Assembly (NCBI GenBank): GCA_026004795.1
Contig: BPJV01000003.1
Location: 496,001 to 560,000 of the forward strand
Direction of reading: 5' to 3'
DNA from: Pirellulaceae bacterium
GTDB taxonomy: Bacteria > Planctomycetota > Planctomycetia > Pirellulales > Pirellulaceae
Length of the DNA stretch: 64,000 nucleotides
A program made the translations under genes and the position numbers. The notes beneath the pieces were generated by a model. That model was not told the origin of the DNA and ran no database searches. It worked only from the letters and a program-made list of their open reading frames with translations. How positions within the stretch are numbered: position 1 is the first letter of the stretch; each line of letters starts with the position of its first letter. Positions 35,150 through 42,412 of the stretch are shown in pieces.

Positions 35150-36565
35150 CAGCGAACGACGTGGAAATCGATTTTCCCTTGCCCGAATTTGTGCCCCTTC
35201 ATATCTTCAATCGTCAACCGCAATTCATGTCGACCGGGCTCCAGCCGGGATGGCATGTGAAATCGATAGGCGACATAGAAGTCTTCCCGCTGATTGCCGC
35301 AAAAGTCCGTATCCTCCGGTAGAATCTGGTCCGCGATACGGCGCCCTTGGGCATCGACAATTTCGTAACTTCCCTGCAATTGAGTCTCATAGCCTCCCCG
35401 CACGGCCTGGCTGACGAAATTTTCCAACTCGCAATATAACAGCACCTCTTGATCCGGCCGGAAATGGTATTGGGGGAATTTGGTAATCACGCCAAAACTG
35501 AGCACTTCGGTGCAAAAAGCGAGATTCTTGACTTCCAGATTGGCCAGTTTCGCCAACGCGTTCTCCGCCGTCCGATGACTTCGCAAAGCCAACGTCCAAC
35601 GACGATTGGCAACCGGATTTCCGTTGATGTCGGTGGCATCGTAAAGCGCCTGAAACGTGTGCGCGACATAGTCCTGCGCTTCGGGTTGCAAATCGGGTAT
35701 CGGTTGCAGGGCGCCATCCAAATCGTCGATTACCAGATTGACCAGCCGTCGTTTCTTCGCGTAGTCAACTTGCTCATCCGGGTTGGAGGTCTGCTCGGCC
35801 GCCCCCTCCAGCTTGTCGATCAACGCCAAAGCCAACTGACGAATTGTCGCTGACTTCAGCGCGGCCTCCCCGGTGACGGCTCCCCCCTCGCCGGCTCCAT
35901 CCCCCGCCGAACGCTGGGGAATTGGTTGCTCGTCAAGCGTTGGTTCTCGCACCGCGTCCGACGATCCCCCGGTGACTTTCTTGGCGCTCGCCAGCACAAC
36001 GGCAGAATTCGTGTCGCGTTCCTCTTGGTCGTTGGTCGACAAGGCAGCGGGAACCTCGTCGACGTAGCGATTGCGAGGCTTCTTACGGATCGTGGTTTCC
36101 TGTTCCGTAGTTTTCTCCGTGTCACCATCGCTCAAGTGATACACCGCCGGTTGTGCTTCCCCCCCCGCCTTCAGAACCCGATGCGGCCGCCGAAACGACG
36201 CGGTCATCGCTGGCCGCCTCCGGCTCGTTAGCGTGCTGAATGGCTCGTGAAATACGCTCCAACAATTGCTCCTCACGACTGGGCACTGAGGACTCACTTT
36301 TCCCCTCCACCTTGCTCCTGCCGGATCCCTCGCCGGACGATGAAGCCTCAGTCGATGACGCAAGCGTCGCTGCCGAACTGCTTCCCGGTCGGTGCGATGA
36401 AGAGATCGACTGATGTGCGGCTCGCTGTTCAATGTCAATCAACTCGTGAAAATCCGGCTCCGCAGGCTTGTTCAACCTCCACGGTGCCCGGCACCCCAAC
36501 AACAGAGCGCTCGCCAGCGACGAACCTAGGAGCGCCCATCGGACCTTGTGAACTCGCTGTGCCAT
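35149..36565 (-). CDS. Lipoprotein of unknown function, frameshifted in a C8 tract
   Basis: ATG 36565, behind GGAAGGAAG, begins a lipoprotein signal: ALLGSSLASALLLGC, cysteine near residue 22. This frame continues through a serine-rich region and ends in poly-Gly. A second frame starting inside continues with EAQPAVYHLSDGDTEK and runs to 35149 with a conserved-looking C-terminal half (LYCELENFVSQAV, RRIADQILPEDTDFCGNQREDFY, RHELRLTIEDMKGHKFGQG). Removing one base from the C8 run at 36159-36166 gives a single 471-residue lipoprotein. The C-terminal 130 residues resemble a beta-sandwich. Role unknown. Confidence 0.75.
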
Positions 36566-37748
36566 TATCGTGCTTCCTTCCCTGGGAGCCCTGTCATCGT
36601 TCCGCCTGCGTCTCATCCTGCCACCTCCGCGCAGGCGGAGTAAATGGCGGTTGTCTGTCGCTCGATCATAGGAAATTGCCACCTTCGATCACAACCCGGA
36701 TTCCCCCCTCCCTATGGGTGTCTCGGTGCCCTTTCACCCCTTCCCCCTGCTCAGCACCGCGACATCCCAGAAAAGTCTCGACTGTCGCTCTCGCCTCCGA
36801 AATGTAGGTGTTCGCCCTTGCTCCGTTGCGATTCACCGCTACGAACAGGCTGGAAGAGACGGTTATTGCGGCTCATGACGGGTCGACCAGAGTTGGCGGA
36901 CCGACCACGGCGAGGCGATTTGAGGGTGGCGGACACAGCGGAGCCCACCAGCTTATGCGACCGCAGGCCGGTTGGGTAACCTGACAGGTTGCGGTCCATG
37001 CTTGTTTCGTACCCAAGCTTTTTCTTGTACCGAGGCTCTGCCTGGCCGAATTCTACTACCGAGGCTCTGTCAGGGTAGGCGTTGCCACTAGAGGCCGTTG
37101 TTGGCGATGGCAGCGGCGGAGCCTGCTGGGCCACGATCTCTTAGGCAGCGTCCTGTACTAGCCAACGATGGGCGACCTCATCGACGCTTCCGATGGTGCT
37201 ATCCATGGCTAGATTCGTCTGGAAAGAAACGCTGACTTTCCCAGCTGCTCGCCCTTGATCGCTCCGCCCCCATCCACTACAATCACCACTATTGAGACCG
37301 AGTCTCATTATCACCGCCGCTTTAGCCCGCTATCTCGTAGCAAGCCTCCCAGGCCAGCCAACGCCAGCTCCGCGGCACCGGCAACTTCTTTTGTTTTTCT
37401 GCGCGTCCTGGGAGCCCTGACGATGACTCCGACCGCCAACAGGCAGCCCGCGCCCCTGCGCCCCTGGAGGGCGGCGAGGCGCCGCACAACCTGGCAGGCT
37501 TCCTGTCAGGCGGCTTGCCGCCGGCACCGGTCGGTGACATCGAGCCTTGCCCGCGCCCATCGCTTGCTTCCCTCCCCACACGGCGATGCCACCACCCCTC
37601 GGCCTGCGCGCTCCCCACCGAGACGAAGGCGCTTACGGCACTGGTGGCCCCCTGCCGTCCCCATCCCGCTCACAACACCCGACGCGGCTCACATCGAGCA
37701 CTTGAGTTGCCCCTGCGCCACCGCGCGAGGCCCTACGGAGAGAACACG
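36566..37748. other. Long non-coding interval with a short direct repeat
   Basis: Nearly 1.2 kb without a convincing gene; open frames here (for example 36751-37134 on the minus strand) lack ribosome sites and protein-like composition. TACCGAGGCTCTG is repeated at 37028-37040 and 37057-37069, the first copy followed by CC so that AGGC...GCCT can form a small hairpin; this resembles the dispersed GAGGCTCTGCCTGG-type palindromes of some bacterial genomes. The last 500 bp contain the promoter and operator described separately. Confidence 0.5.
37255..37307 (+). promoter_or_regulatory. Sigma70-like promoter with Fur-box-like palindrome
   Basis: TTGATC (37255-37260), 17 bp, TACAAT (37278-37283), then, 9 bp later, TGAGACCGAGTCTCA (37293-37307), a palindrome with perfect 6-bp arms, followed by TTATCA. 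The arms and the 7-1-7 spacing resemble a Fur operator (TGATAATNATTATCA), and its position over the likely transcription start suits repression by iron-loaded Fur. The first downstream gene starts at 37749, leaving a 450-base leader. Assignment to Fur is inference. Confidence 0.55.
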
Positions 37749-37916
37749 ATGACGAAGACGCTGTGTGAACTGAAAAAGCCACTGAAGAAGGACACCGTGG
37801 AGTACCTGAAGAAGGTGCGCGACGCCACGCACGCTTGCCACAAGTGCGGCCGCGCTGCCAATGACCGTCGGTTGCTATGCAAACCGATTGACCTGACCAA
37901 TAGCCCTGAGGCTTGA
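37749..37916 (+). CDS. CxxC mini-protein of unknown function
   Basis: A 55-residue protein from ATG 37749, preceded by GGAGAG. It is lysine-rich at the N-terminus (TLCELKKPLKKDTVEYLKK) and has four cysteines: Cys-6, the CHKC pair near residue 31, and a later LLCKP. The CxxC...C layout could bind zinc or iron, or be redox-active. There is no signal peptide. It is 22 bp upstream of the TPR gene with the AAAGGAG ribosome site between them, and probably starts the transcript from the Fur-like promoter. I do not recognise a named family. Confidence 0.65.
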   Translation: MTKTLCELKKPLKKDTVEYLKKVRDATHACHKCGRAANDRRLLCKPIDLTNSPEA

Positions 37917-37938
37917 GTTTCGAAAGGAGAATCGCCGG

Positions 37939-38697
37939 ATGGACGATCGAGATTCGACATTAAAAACCGTTGCCACGCTGTACGAACAAGGGTACTACGA
38001 ACAGGCACGAGACCTAGCCCACAGCACCTTGCAGCAACACCCCGATGACGGCAAACTCTGGGAACTCTGCGGACTGTGCCACGACGCCCTCAACGACGTG
38101 GCCGCAGCCACGAGGGCCCTGGAAAAAGCCACGCTGCTCGTCCCCCTTTCGGCGGCCGGGCAATGCGTACTTGCCAGATGCTATGCGGTCACGGGCCACC
38201 GCGACTTGGCTCGCCAGATGTATCGCCATGTCTTCTCCATGGCGGACCTGCCTAGCAGGTTGCTACCGATGCTGGCCGCTGGGTTAGGAAGCGCCGGCGA
38301 CTGCGAACTTGCCCTGCAGGCCTGCCGTCAGGCGGCAGCCCTACAACTGGACAGCGGTCAACCCTTCTACGGCATGGCGCACTACATGGGGCGACTGGGC
38401 TATCCGCTGGAGATGATCGCCAACGTCCTTCGCCGCGCCGTGGCGATCGAACCCGACGTATTTCAGTATCGCTTTGCGCTGGCCGTCGCCTGCGGGCACC
38501 TCGGACACCTCGAAGATGCCTATCACGTACTGCGACCGGCGATCGATGCCGAGCTGATTGGCAGCATCCAGTGTGTGCACTGCCTACGCCACCTGGAATG
38601 GATCCTGGCCTCCAACGAGGACGCCTTGAGCGGCATCTGCTGCAGTCGAATCCTGCAATTGACCAACTCCGAAGACGACACGCTGCTGCAAGGGTAA
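37939..38697 (+). CDS. Tetratricopeptide-repeat protein
   Basis: A 252-residue, all-helical soluble protein. TPR-like units are visible at ATLYEQGYYEQARDLAHSTL, LWELCGLCHDALNDVAAATRAL, LARCYAVTGHRDLARQMY and the following 34-residue blocks, with the usual small-residue spacing (W/L-G-Y-A-P). No signal peptide or membrane segment, so probably a cytosolic scaffold or adaptor. It is rich in cysteine for a TPR protein (about 11). ATG 37939 follows AAAGGAG. It is second in the putative iron-responsive unit, and its stop lies 2 bp before the next start. Confidence 0.75.
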   Translation: MDDRDSTLKTVATLYEQGYYEQARDLAHSTLQQHPDDGKLWELCGLCHDALNDVAAATRALEKATLLVPLSAAGQCVLARCYAVTGHRDLARQMYRHVFSMADLPSRLLPMLAAGLGSAGDCELALQACRQAAALQLDSGQPFYGMAHYMGRLGYPLEMIANVLRRAVAIEPDVFQYRFALAVACGHLGHLEDAYHVLRPAIDAELIGSIQCVHCLRHLEWILASNEDALSGICCSRILQLTNSEDDTLLQG

Positions 38698-38699
38698 CC

Positions 38700-39224
38700 A
38701 TGACGGGATTTACAGTACGCCATGAAGAACCGGTGGCCGCGTGGTACCTGGCGGCCCTGCTGACGGCGGCCGGATGCGAGCAGGCAAAGCCCCCCTTATC
38801 GACACAGGCCCCCACCCCGGCAGGATGCGGCCTGCCAGCCGATCGCACGGCGAACCGGCCCGCGGAAGAACCATACCGCTTGACGACCACCGCACTGGTG
38901 CCGTGCCATGAACTGACCGGTGCGGGCAGGAAGACCTGGCATGTCGTGAAGGCCGAGTGGGACGGCCATCCGACCCGCCCTCCCTTCCATGCGCTCACGT
39001 TCTTCGCTGGCGGCGGCTGGAGGGATTCCAGCTGCGTCGGTGGGATATGGCGATTCGACCCCCACCCAAATCGGCTGTATTTCGAACTGGGTGAGTTTGA
39101 AGCCCTCATCAGTGCTGAGGTGCTACAGCTTACGGAGGACCGCCTGGTGATCGAGTTTGCCAACTATGCTCCATCGATGGTTTTAACCCTCACTCCCAGC
39201 AACCGTATGTCGAGCAATGAATGA
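38700..39224 (+). CDS. Hypothetical protein in the Fur-like unit
   Basis: A 174-residue protein from ATG 38700. No family recognised. The N-terminus is weakly hydrophobic (AAWYLAALLTAAGCEQAK) and could be a poor lipoprotein signal with a cysteine near residue 26. The C-terminal half contains LTFFAGGGWRDSSCVGGIWRF and LYFELGEFEALISAEVLQL, then a beta-rich tail. It starts 2 bp after the TPR stop and ends in ATGA shared with the next small gene, so the three genes are tightly coupled. Confidence 0.6.
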   Translation: MTGFTVRHEEPVAAWYLAALLTAAGCEQAKPPLSTQAPTPAGCGLPADRTANRPAEEPYRLTTTALVPCHELTGAGRKTWHVVKAEWDGHPTRPPFHALTFFAGGGWRDSSCVGGIWRFDPHPNRLYFELGEFEALISAEVLQLTEDRLVIEFANYAPSMVLTLTPSNRMSSNE

Positions 39225-39406
39225 TCCAGTCGAAGCCACCGAGACGGAAGCGTGCGACCGGCAAAACGGCTGTCCGTGATGGGGCGAACCACATGGCGAT
39301 CTGGTGCTTGATCTGGTTACACGCCAAGATCTTTGCCACGACGGCAGTGGCCACGCTTGCGGTGAACCTGCTGTACAAGGTCGCCCAGAGATGGGGTAAG
39401 CCATGA
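39221..39406 (+). CDS. Single-helix small membrane protein
   Basis: A 61-residue protein. Its ATG overlaps the upstream stop as ATGA (39221-39224), a classic coupling arrangement. The first 24 residues are basic (KPPRRKRATGK), followed by one membrane helix (IWCLIWLHAKIFATTAVATLAVNLLY) and a short cytoplasmic tail KVAQRWGKP. Positive-inside topology places the N-terminus in the cytoplasm, but both ends are basic. No family recognised; the coupling is the main reason to accept it. Confidence 0.5.
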   Translation: MIQSKPPRRKRATGKTAVRDGANHMAIWCLIWLHAKIFATTAVATLAVNLLYKVAQRWGKP

Positions 39407-39720
39407 TGCCACCAGGCAAGCATTCCCATGGGGAGGCGACAGGAATCCTGCAGATTACCGCTCCCCGTTCCCGTGGACGACCGCGCTGCCGACCACCCCC
39501 GAATCACCAGCCTCATGGATTGCGTCCACCGAACACCAGGTCCCTCTTGTACGCGAAGCCACCCGCACTACAATCCTAAGCTACTGAGACTCAATATCAC
39601 ATCCGCTTGTTGCTTCCCGCCAGCCAGATGCCGGCGCCTTGTCGCGTGCGGCTCAGCGAGCCAGATTCCAACGACATGCGGGTCAAACCTACCATGAACC
39701 CGTTTTTTAAGGAGTCTGTG
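39407..39720. other. Short non-coding interval carrying a second promoter
   Basis: 314 bp between the small membrane-protein gene and the DUF1559 gene. It holds the second promoter and operator, described separately, and no gene. Confidence 0.5.
39547..39599 (+). promoter_or_regulatory. Second sigma70-like promoter with Fur-like site
   Basis: TTGTAC (39547-39552), 16 bp, TACAAT (39569-39574), then, 10 bp later, TGAGACTCAATATCA (39585-39599). It shares CACTACAATC, the TGAGAC half-site at nearly the same distance, and the trailing TATCAC with the promoter at 37255, 2.3 kb upstream. The palindrome is imperfect. The DUF1559 gene starts at 39721. Confidence 0.5.
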
Positions 39721-40638
39721 ATGCGCACAGTTCTTCGTACCGCGCCCCGCGCCGGTTTTACCTTGGTCGAATTGTTGGTGGTGATTGCCATCATTGGCAT
39801 CTTGGTGGGATTGTTGCTGCCCGCCGTGCAATCTGCCCGCGAAGCGGCGCGGCGAATGAGTTGCCAAAACAACCTCAAGCAAATGGGTTTGGCGCTCCAC
39901 AATTACCACGACACCTACAAGTCACTCCCTCCGGGCTGGGCAGATTGGTACGGAGTGTGGAATCCGCCGCTCCACTCGGCCCACGCCAACGTCGCGATGC
40001 TCCCCTATCTAGAACAGACGAACCTGGCCGCTCAGTATGACTTCAATGTGGCCTGGGACCACATCAACAATCAACCACTGCTGACGCTCATGCCCCCGGT
40101 GTATGCCTGTCCTTCCGCCCCAGGTGCCGGCGACGCGGCCCCCGATGGCTACCAAACATCAGATTATGCCTATGTGCGTAGTGCTTCGGATTGGAATGCC
40201 CACCAAGGGCGTGAGCATGCCATGTTTGAGATCAATCACTTTCGCAAGTTTCGCGATGTGATCGATGGATTGTCCAATACGATTCTGCAGTACGAATCGG
40301 CGGGCCGCACGCAGTCCTACGTCTACGGTCAGGTTACCACGCCTCCGTCCTGGTGGAATGGTGCCTATCGAGCATGGACCGGCAACTTCAACGCGAGTTG
40401 GTTCTACCCGGCTCACTTCACCCTCGATCCCAACGGTGGCGAACCAAGCGTCAATTGGTTTGTCGGCTCAGAGATTATCAACACCCACAACTGGAACGCC
40501 CCCTATTCCTTCCACGTGGGCGGGATTCAGATCAGCCTGGGCGATGGCTCTGTCCGCTTCTTAGCGGAGAACGTCGACGTGGAAATCATCAATACCATCA
40601 CGTCCATCAACGGCGGTGAAGTGCTGGGAGAGTTTTGA
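39721..40638 (+). CDS. DUF1559 prepilin-like protein (H-X9-DG)
   Basis: A 305-residue protein typical of planctomycetes. It has the type IV prepilin N-terminus [34 protein letters not shown] in segments (F at +1, E at +5) after a short leader, then [23 protein letters not shown], and near the C-terminus [19 protein letters not shown], the H-X9-DG signature. ATG 39721 follows AAGGAG. Such proteins are thought to be exported by a type II-like pseudopilus route; their function is not settled. The next gene starts 2 bp downstream, so they form a transcript with the PepSY gene. Confidence 0.92.
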
Positions 40639-40640
40639 AC

Positions 40641-41186
40641 ATGAGCAGCCAACACACACGGCGACAGTCGACTAGGAGCCGCGAACGTTGGTCCGCGCGA
40701 TCCGTTGTTATCCCCACCGTCATTTGGGCATTGTTTTTTGCTTCTGGCTGTGGCGATGCGGATTGGCATGCGGAAACCCATCCAGCCCAAGGTCGAATCA
40801 CCATCAACGGCTCGCCCCCTGTAGGTGCAGTGATAACGCTCTATCCAACCGGTGGCAAAGTGGATACGCGAAACTCCACGCCCTGGGCGTTGGTAGAGGA
40901 AGATGGCTCGTTCACCCTCAGTACGTACGAACTAGGGGACGGGGCACCAGCAGGAGCATACAAACTGACCGTGCGGTGGCCCGTCGATGTTACCGACATG
41001 TCAGCGGCGCTGACCGATCGCCTGCAAGGTGCCTACTCCCGGCCCGAGCGATCGCAGTGGACGGTAACGATCGAGGAAGGCGAAAACCAGTTGCCACCGA
41101 TCGAGATCACTGGCGCCAAGGTCCTTGCCGAGGAACGTTCCACGAAATTGCGTGGCGGTCCGAACGGGCCCCCCAGGGGGCGTTAG
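40641..41186 (+). CDS. Small lipoprotein with carboxypeptidase-regulatory-like domain
   Basis: A 181-residue protein from ATG 40641, behind GGGAGAG. A lipoprotein signal ends in FFASGC at about residue 38. The mature part resembles the short beta-sandwich proteins that commonly follow DUF1559 genes in planctomycetes, with GRITINGSPPVGAVITLYPTGG, DGSFTLSTYELGDGAPAGAYKLTV and a C-terminal EGENQLPPIEI. It starts 2 bp after the DUF1559 stop. Likely an envelope binding or structural partner; function unproven. Confidence 0.8.
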   Translation: MSSQHTRRQSTRSRERWSARSVVIPTVIWALFFASGCGDADWHAETHPAQGRITINGSPPVGAVITLYPTGGKVDTRNSTPWALVEEDGSFTLSTYELGDGAPAGAYKLTVRWPVDVTDMSAALTDRLQGAYSRPERSQWTVTIEEGENQLPPIEITGAKVLAEERSTKLRGGPNGPPRGR

Positions 41187-41242
41187 GGCGTCCTTGCGCA
41201 CCCTTAGTTCTGTTGCCACCACCGCTCGTCGCCTTGAAAAAC

Positions 41243-42412
41243 ATGAAAATGCACCGACTTCGCAAAACCTGGTTACAGATCCACCGTTGGCTCGGGGTAT
41301 GGATAGGGCTCTTATTTGCCTTGGTCGGTTTGACCGGCAGCCTGCTCGTTTTCGACCACGCCATCGATGAGTGGCTCAACCCCGAGCTATTGCTGACGAA
41401 GGGAAACGGCAGTCGCCGCCCCCTTACAGATGTCGTCCGTGCGGCAGAACAGTATTATGCCCCCCCTGAAAAGACTGCTTTCTCTGTCAACCGTCCGCGG
41501 GTGCCAAACGGTGTCTGGACGGTATGGTTTGTCGAAGGTTCGGCTCACGATCGAAAATTCGTTGCGGTCTACGTCGACCCCTACACAGCGCAGGTTACCG
41601 GCCGGCGCGTGTGGGGAGAAGATTTGATGTCCGGGATTTACAATCTGCACTTCCGTTTGATGGCAGGAAGACCCGGAGGCATCATCGTCGGCCTGATCGG
41701 ATGTTGCTTGCTGTTGTCGATTGCCACCGGACTGTGGCTGTGGTGGCCGTTGTGGAAACGAAGTTGGCGAGCTGCCTTCGCTGTGCGTCGCGGCAGGTTG
41801 CTCAACTTTGATATCCACAAGGTGGTGGGCACCATCAGCAGCGCGTTCTTGGTGACCCTTGCGTTTACGGGGGTTTACATGGAGTTCCCCGGCCTTTTCA
41901 AGAAGATTGTCACGAGCGTCGCTCCGCTGAGCCATCCACCCGAGGGACTGCAATCCACACGGCAAGAGGGAAACGAACCGATATCGCCAGACGCCGCCGT
42001 GGCGATCGCCCAGCAGAGGTTTCCCAACGCGCAATTCGATCACCTCCACCTACCCACCGACGACGACGGTGTCTATGAGGTCGCGTTGCGACAGCCAGAC
42101 GAAATCCAGGAGTCGTTTGGCCGCACGCAGGTGTTCATCGACCAATACGACGGCAGTATCCTGGCGGTATACCAACCTGCAGATTATACGGCGGCCGACG
42201 CTTTCTTCGCATGGCAATTCCCTCTGCATAATGGTGAAGCATTCGGGCTGGTGGGCCGCTGGTTCGTCTTGGTCGCCGGATTAACTCCCTCCATCCTCTA
42301 TGTCACCGGAATTGCTATTTGGTGGAGAAAGTCGCGGACCGCAAAGCAAAGAATGACGCCAAACCCCACCGGCGAACGATCGTCGGCGATCGATAAGGCG
42401 GCCGTCGCCTGA
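41243..42412 (+). CDS. PepSY-associated transmembrane protein
   Basis: A 389-residue inner-membrane protein of the PepSY-TM family, many members of which are iron-regulated and found with siderophore receptors. Four transmembrane segments are visible: KTWLQIHRWLGVWIGLLFAL near the start (with the family histidine in the HRW motif), VGLIGCCLLLSIATGLWLWW near residue 150, VGTISSAFLVTLAFTGVY, and GRWFVLVAGLTPSILYVTGIAIW at the C-terminus. Two PepSY-like periplasmic stretches lie between (around residues 60-110 and 240-310). Starts at ATG 41243 or 41249. It closes the DUF1559 unit, 56 bp after the lipoprotein. Confidence 0.88.
   Translation: MKMHRLRKTWLQIHRWLGVWIGLLFALVGLTGSLLVFDHAIDEWLNPELLLTKGNGSRRPLTDVVRAAEQYYAPPEKTAFSVNRPRVPNGVWTVWFVEGSAHDRKFVAVYVDPYTAQVTGRRVWGEDLMSGIYNLHFRLMAGRPGGIIVGLIGCCLLLSIATGLWLWWPLWKRSWRAAFAVRRGRLLNFDIHKVVGTISSAFLVTLAFTGVYMEFPGLFKKIVTSVAPLSHPPEGLQSTRQEGNEPISPDAAVAIAQQRFPNAQFDHLHLPTDDDGVYEVALRQPDEIQESFGRTQVFIDQYDGSILAVYQPADYTAADAFFAWQFPLHNGEAFGLVGRWFVLVAGLTPSILYVTGIAIWWRKSRTAKQRMTPNPTGERSSAIDKAAVA

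Follow-up and report, generated by a model that had tools for sequence, protein, structure and literature searches.

Candidate Fur-type operators at twin promoters before TPR and DUF1559-PepSY genes of a Pirellulaceae bacterium

Twin promoters and the genes behind them

The stretch of DNA analyzed here (the window, 64,000 nucleotides, G000:C3:496001-560000) belongs to a Pirellulaceae bacterium whose genome comprises 5.59 Mb in 17 contigs and is 96.8% complete; its own DUF1559 genes and its relatives assign it to the planctomycetes. Two promoter-like elements on the forward strand of the window each lead into a palindrome that resembles a Fur box. Both palindromes are very probably operators of the only Fur-family protein detectable in the genome, with iron-dependent repression as the proposed model.

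At site 1, TTGATC (37255-37260) and TACAAT (37278-37283) are 17 bp apart within the element at 37255-37283, and a heptad palindrome, TGAGACCGAGTCTCA at 37293-37307, begins 9 bp past TACAAT, its arms matching (by eye) at 6/7 positions. Site 2 combines TTGTAC (39547-39552), a 16-bp spacer, and TACAAT (39569-39574) within 39547-39574, followed 10 bp later by the palindrome TGAGACTCAATATCA at 39585-39599, with 5/7 arm positions matching. Direct reading thus confirms the twin promoters and palindromes of a preliminary description of this DNA. The sites share the 10-mer CACTACAATC. As 17-mers, they constitute box 1, TTGAGACCGAGTCTCAT (37292-37308), with two mismatches to the pattern TTGAGACTNAGTCTCAA, and box 2, CTGAGACTCAATATCAC (39584-39600). 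A matrix built from nine boxes at planctomycete PepSY loci of other species, which included no site of this genome, gives them scores of 20.1 and 18.7; together with the arm matches, these scores agree with the 7-1-7 Fur-like arms proposed earlier. By sequence, 8 to 9 bases separate TACAAT from the 17-mer box, and both sites would meet the predicted start point of transcription, with box 1 probably overlapping it. Promoter hexamer scores are 9/12 at site 1 (p 0.015 versus shuffles) and 8/12 at site 2, using a -35 other than that originally described. A weaker matrix match in the window (CTGCAATTGAGTCTCAT, 35374-35390, score 14.2) lies inside an open reading frame (ORF) on the opposite strand and is probably due to chance.

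All genes behind the boxes are on the forward strand. Box 2 is followed by a gene for a DUF1559 (SBP_bac_10) protein with a prepilin-type N terminus (39721-40638; Pfam 2.1e-58, N_methyl), a 183-amino-acid ORF named lipoprotein-like by eye (40635-41186; no Pfam match), and, from a putative start codon, a gene for a PepSY_TM protein (41240-42412; Pfam 9.9e-69) that is the sole PepSY_TM match in the genome. The PepSY protein matches Protein Data Bank (PDB) entry 7abw over its full length (E 2.9e-26), with aligned histidines in HRxxG, the LHF/FHH region, FDxH, and Q(F/Y)P(L/I)H. We take 7abw to be the ferric-siderophore reductase FoxB; the record itself says only PepSY domain-containing protein. 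By family match and aligned histidines, the window protein is FoxB-like, and a reductase role is putative. The probable target of box 1 is a gene for a 252-amino-acid TPR protein (37939-38697; Pfam TPR), preceded by a 55-amino-acid ORF with a CxxC motif (37749-37916, inside the ORF at 37515-37916) and followed by a 174-amino-acid ORF (38700-39224), neither with a Pfam match. None of these three has relatives in the nine named PepSY loci.

DUF1559 genes are numerous in this genome, with 48 matches, some of them fragments. Thirty were delivered as loci and scanned, one of which (L088) was not orientable; three carry a box (scores 18.7, 23.9, and 26.2), and the best unboxed locus scores 7.6. The box therefore marks a few DUF1559 copies rather than the whole family. 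Besides the window operon, the boxed loci are L089:3315-6680 (C3:3315), in which a box of 26.2 precedes a DUF1559 gene, a small ORF, and a DUF4198-Kelch protein gene, and L026:4211-6171 on contig C9, in which a box of 23.9 precedes a DUF1559 gene and then a nitroreductase-family ORF. Among wider TPR regions, L168 and L169 have the order box, DUF1559, TPR, with a Kelch protein between DUF1559 and TPR in L169. Taken with C3:3315, these layouts bring genes of the DUF1559, Kelch, and TPR types together behind the box.

The box at iron genes and in related genomes

A box of the same type, TTGACACTGAGTCTCAA (matrix score 23.6), lies 17 bp before the first feoA of a feoA-feoA-feoB cluster in this genome, and it had surfaced in a genome pattern search before feoB was looked for. 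The one FeoB proper was identified by its N-terminal domain (C3:310142-310615, E 1.2e-56) and is preceded by the two feoA genes; the other nine FeoB G-domain matches are at 1.2e-11 or weaker. The preliminary description had suggested a search for the same box at known iron genes of the genome, and it is present at feoAB. Genome-wide, TTGAGACTNAGTCTCAA is matched with at most two mismatches at only four sites, namely site 1, the feoA box, and the promoters of two DUF1559 genes. On contig C4, a further box (L027:6346-6362, score 19.1) is located between two divergent genes, one for a ferredoxin and the other identified by eye as fabH.

The PepSY protein search returned 17 loci, nine of them planctomycete. 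All nine keep the order DUF1559, lipoprotein-like ORF, PepSY, with a box just before DUF1559, in the same place as box 2. Seven of these nine boxes have three or fewer mismatches to TTGAGACTNAGTCTCAA; those of L043 and L045 are looser; they were chosen by eye and then put in register by the aligner. The planctomycete matrix also finds proteobacterial-type boxes, e.g., ATGATAATCATTCTCAA, 2 to 6 kb from Methylophaga PepSY genes, where they read ATGATAATCATTCTCA(A/G) at L053:6185, L054:4551, and L055:5306.

Three further samples were scanned at a matrix cutoff of at least 15, each consisting of the best-matching loci delivered per search rather than of all genomes, with 200 column-permuted matrices run on the same loci as a control. 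FeoB is encoded in 103/118 class genomes, and 29 loci other than our own were delivered, 28 of them evaluable; L128 was left out because its contig begins 62 bases before the placing motif. A box lies upstream of feoB in 26/28 of these loci (permuted mean 0.49, maximum 16). The DUF1559-lipoprotein pair is present in 215/297 genomes, and 19 of the 29 non-own loci delivered have a box (permuted mean 0.20, maximum 10); three loci in this sample duplicate the training set, as the boxes and leaders of L094, L096, and L100 are identical to those of L046, L047, and L042. For the TPR gene, 14 non-own loci were delivered, and 11 have a box within 1.5 kb upstream (permuted mean 0.13, maximum 3). Of 14 wider TPR regions, 13 have a box of at least 17 that either precedes the TPR gene or falls where its ORF, as called, begins. 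Some boxes occur as overlapping pairs with a 6-bp offset, at L096:370-392 and, on the reverse strand in reverse-complement numbering, at L119 254-276 and L106 453-475.

In 98 genomes of the class, the consensus TTGAGAYTNARTCTCAA was matched without mismatch 54 times, in 38 of the genomes, and the reversed control has no match in the same 98. For 23 of the 54 sites, a FeoB match follows at a distance below 2 kb, two of these sites belonging to one gene, as counted from 30 FeoB coordinates. Thirty exact sites, one per genome, were inspected for genes oriented away from the box: 11 precede feo genes, nine precede DUF1559 genes, four (L196, L197, L198, and L201) precede relatives of the window TPR gene, and six precede none of these. 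Three of the nine DUF1559 cases (L193, L194, and L207) begin 0.55 to 0.67 kb from the box, and the count excludes L184, where the match to DUF1559 is short. With 24/30 exact sites before feo, DUF1559, or TPR genes, both window targets belong to the gene types that most often follow the box. Since exact sites often precede DUF1559 and TPR relatives, box 2 most likely controls the predicted DUF1559-lipoprotein-PepSY reductase operon, and box 1 most likely controls the TPR gene. Among the six other sites, three (L189, L192, and L202) adjoin or overlap weak cupredoxin-like ORFs, one of which is above the Pfam cutoff, and two (L209 and L211) adjoin prolyl-oligopeptidase-like ORFs (weak matches); both kinds of ORF are possible further iron targets.

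The two window promoters align locally with a score of 30 (200 shuffles, mean 17, maximum 27), so they may derive from a local duplication, and site 2 taken alone is weak (18.7). A rival reading takes the palindromes to be of chance or structural origin, carried by a duplicated promoter and serving as no operator, but the boxes hold their position in 9/9 PepSY relatives and 26/28 feoB loci, and exact matches number 54 versus 0. Chance palindromes were rejected on cross-species position and the exact count, and this explanation as a whole is extremely improbable. Random DNA yields three sites reaching 18.7 per 20 Mb, or about 0.8 for a length of 5.6 Mb; in this window, two boxes occur within 2.3 kb of one another, both preceded by a -10-like hexamer.

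Several observations weigh against reading the sites as Fur operators of iron genes. The exact consensus is absent from 60/98 class genomes, including this one; site 2 has four mismatches to TTGAGACTNAGTCTCAA; and allowing three mismatches reveals no enrichment of the pattern here (eight sites versus six for the reversed control). Some permuted matrices reach 16/28, 10/29, and 3/14 loci in the three samples; the high-scoring ones are probably close to the original matrix. Ten of the 29 DUF1559-lipoprotein relatives are without a box of at least 15, as are the 1.5 kb upstream at 3/14 TPR loci, and no more than 27/149 family genomes yielded a TPR relative. Promoter-like hexamers scoring at least 9/12 precede only 6/28 boxes tested (0.5% in shuffles). 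The 12-kb stretch around the fur gene has no matrix match above 10.0, and no box was found upstream at the one TonB-receptor locus of the genome (Plug match, on a different contig from PepSY); the box thus does not cover every expected target.

The predicted regulator is the product of the single detectable Fur-family gene (PF01475, C3:257416-257775), which aligns best to the Fur structures 5fd6, 5fd5, 6d57, and 4ets and has both CxxC pairs of 6d57. Paralogues within the Fur family can have 7-1-7 boxes that are much alike, and PerR and Zur structures are also matched by this protein, though less strongly than Fur structures. The box could accordingly serve a Fur-family protein responsive to peroxide or to a metal other than iron, as Zur or PerR is, with feoAB and the other targets in its regulon. 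That is improbable, however, given that the search turned up a single Fur-family gene, that no target recurs more consistently than feoB among the loci examined, and that the box 2 operon ends in a FoxB-like reductase. The Fur reading suggested in the preliminary description gains support from the feoAB box and the feoB loci of relatives. What the analysis itself shows is the two sites, how they are conserved between species, and that they occur together with feoAB.

Leader sequences downstream of the boxes

Both window sites are followed by a repeat-rich leader on the forward strand. The site 1 leader (37337-37363) has AGC..GC and GCCAGCC repeats around a GCCT-AGGC stem (p 0.018), even though no DUF1559 gene follows directly, and the site 2 leader (39616-39666) has GCCAGCC repeats around GCCG-CGGC (stem p 0.24, not significant alone). 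Many DUF1559 leaders contain GCCAGC repeats between box and start codon, often flanking a short, species-variable stem; examples are L042 to L049, L057, L089, and L026.

We treat the repeats as a real sequence element. In this genome, GCCAGCCA or AGCCAGCC is found in 3/3 boxed DUF1559 leaders versus 1/27 scanned unboxed ones, and 19 leaders, chosen because the motif was visible in them, contain 30 GCCAGC copies versus about three in shuffles. On this basis, the leaders with their small hairpin, e.g., as a structured RNA, might exert the main control, with the box secondary. Such a primary role is nevertheless quite unlikely: feoA is boxed yet has a short leader without the motif, and boxed DUF1559 relatives also lack it, e.g., L102, L104, L106, and L115 to L117.

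Evidence on folding is mixed. In stem shuffles of 18 hand-chosen intervals, seven are below 0.05 alone (Fisher p about 9e-7 over all 18) and 11 are not significant alone, and single-sequence folds give z below -2 in 3/13 leaders. RNAalifold, given 15 leader pieces aligned with MAFFT, found no consensus pairs. Because the consensus fold is empty and the support consists of shuffles of hand-chosen intervals, the hairpin is only suggestive. A known RNA family was sought in Rfam 15, and no match was found in window positions 37000 to 40000 or at the leaders of L042, L043, L072, and L063.

Proposed regulation and known Fur systems

The Fur reading of the two sites is supported about as far as sequence allows, and the mechanism proposed here is modeled on the Fur family. 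With ample iron, a Fur dimer carrying the metal would occupy the 7-1-7 palindrome where transcription begins and keep RNA polymerase out; under iron shortage, the sites would be freed. The TPR gene, together with the preceding 55-amino-acid ORF and possibly later ORFs, would then be expressed from site 1, and the genes for the DUF1559 protein, the lipoprotein, and the FoxB-like PepSY ferric reductase from site 2. Fur binding, iron as corepressor, repression itself, the extents of the operons, and their part in iron acquisition are all inferred components of this model.

A TonB Plug domain was detected in 18/59 class genomes sampled, once in this genome, and in none of the remaining 41/59. With Plug domains scarce and the genome's own receptor unboxed, a TonB-independent iron route through the boxed operons is possible, and the 41/59 genomes in which no Plug domain was found make these operons direct candidates for outer-membrane iron passage. 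More speculatively, the DUF1559 protein, the lipoprotein, and the FoxB-like reductase might form an iron-acquisition machine that takes the place of TonB receptors, with the TPR protein as partner and the GCCAGC-hairpin leader adding control at the RNA level; this fuller picture is doubtful.

If correct, the proposal would give a small DUF1559 branch its first defined function; we know of no proven role for the DUF1559 family. The box singles out a few of dozens of DUF1559 copies (48 matches here) as iron-supply candidates, and the TPR family, without known function, likewise gains such candidates. Two poorly understood planctomycete protein families may thus be tied to iron supply via an operator shared with feo genes. 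Planctomycetes have few genetic tools, and an iron-operator consensus for the class lets regulons be read from genomes.

In the literature searched (titles and the beginnings of abstracts, among the matches listed), there was no planctomycete Fur box and no link of DUF1559 to iron or Fur. The DUF1559 protein of the window is a clear member of the known DUF1559/SBP_bac_10 planctomycete proteins. R. baltica has 74 DUF1559 genes, nine of which are upregulated in cold and salt shock (PMC2754498).

The system is known in kind; the class consensus and the iron link of one DUF1559 branch and the TPR family were not encountered in the literature searched. Unlike FoxB, the window PepSY gene has no TonB receptor beside it and follows a DUF1559 gene and a lipoprotein-like ORF. 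The 7-1-7 model describes the Fur box as TGATAATnATTATCA, and extended Fur arrays contain overlapping boxes offset by 6 bp. The planctomycete box resembles this model in its inverted heptamers about one base, its predicted position at the promoter start, its presence at a feoAB and a reductase operon, and its overlapping copies 6 bp apart (L096, L106, and L119). In contrast to the GATAAT-type arms of the classical Fur box, the planctomycete consensus is TTGAGA(C/T)TNA(A/G)TCTCAA, and its targets extend beyond feo to DUF1559 and TPR genes.

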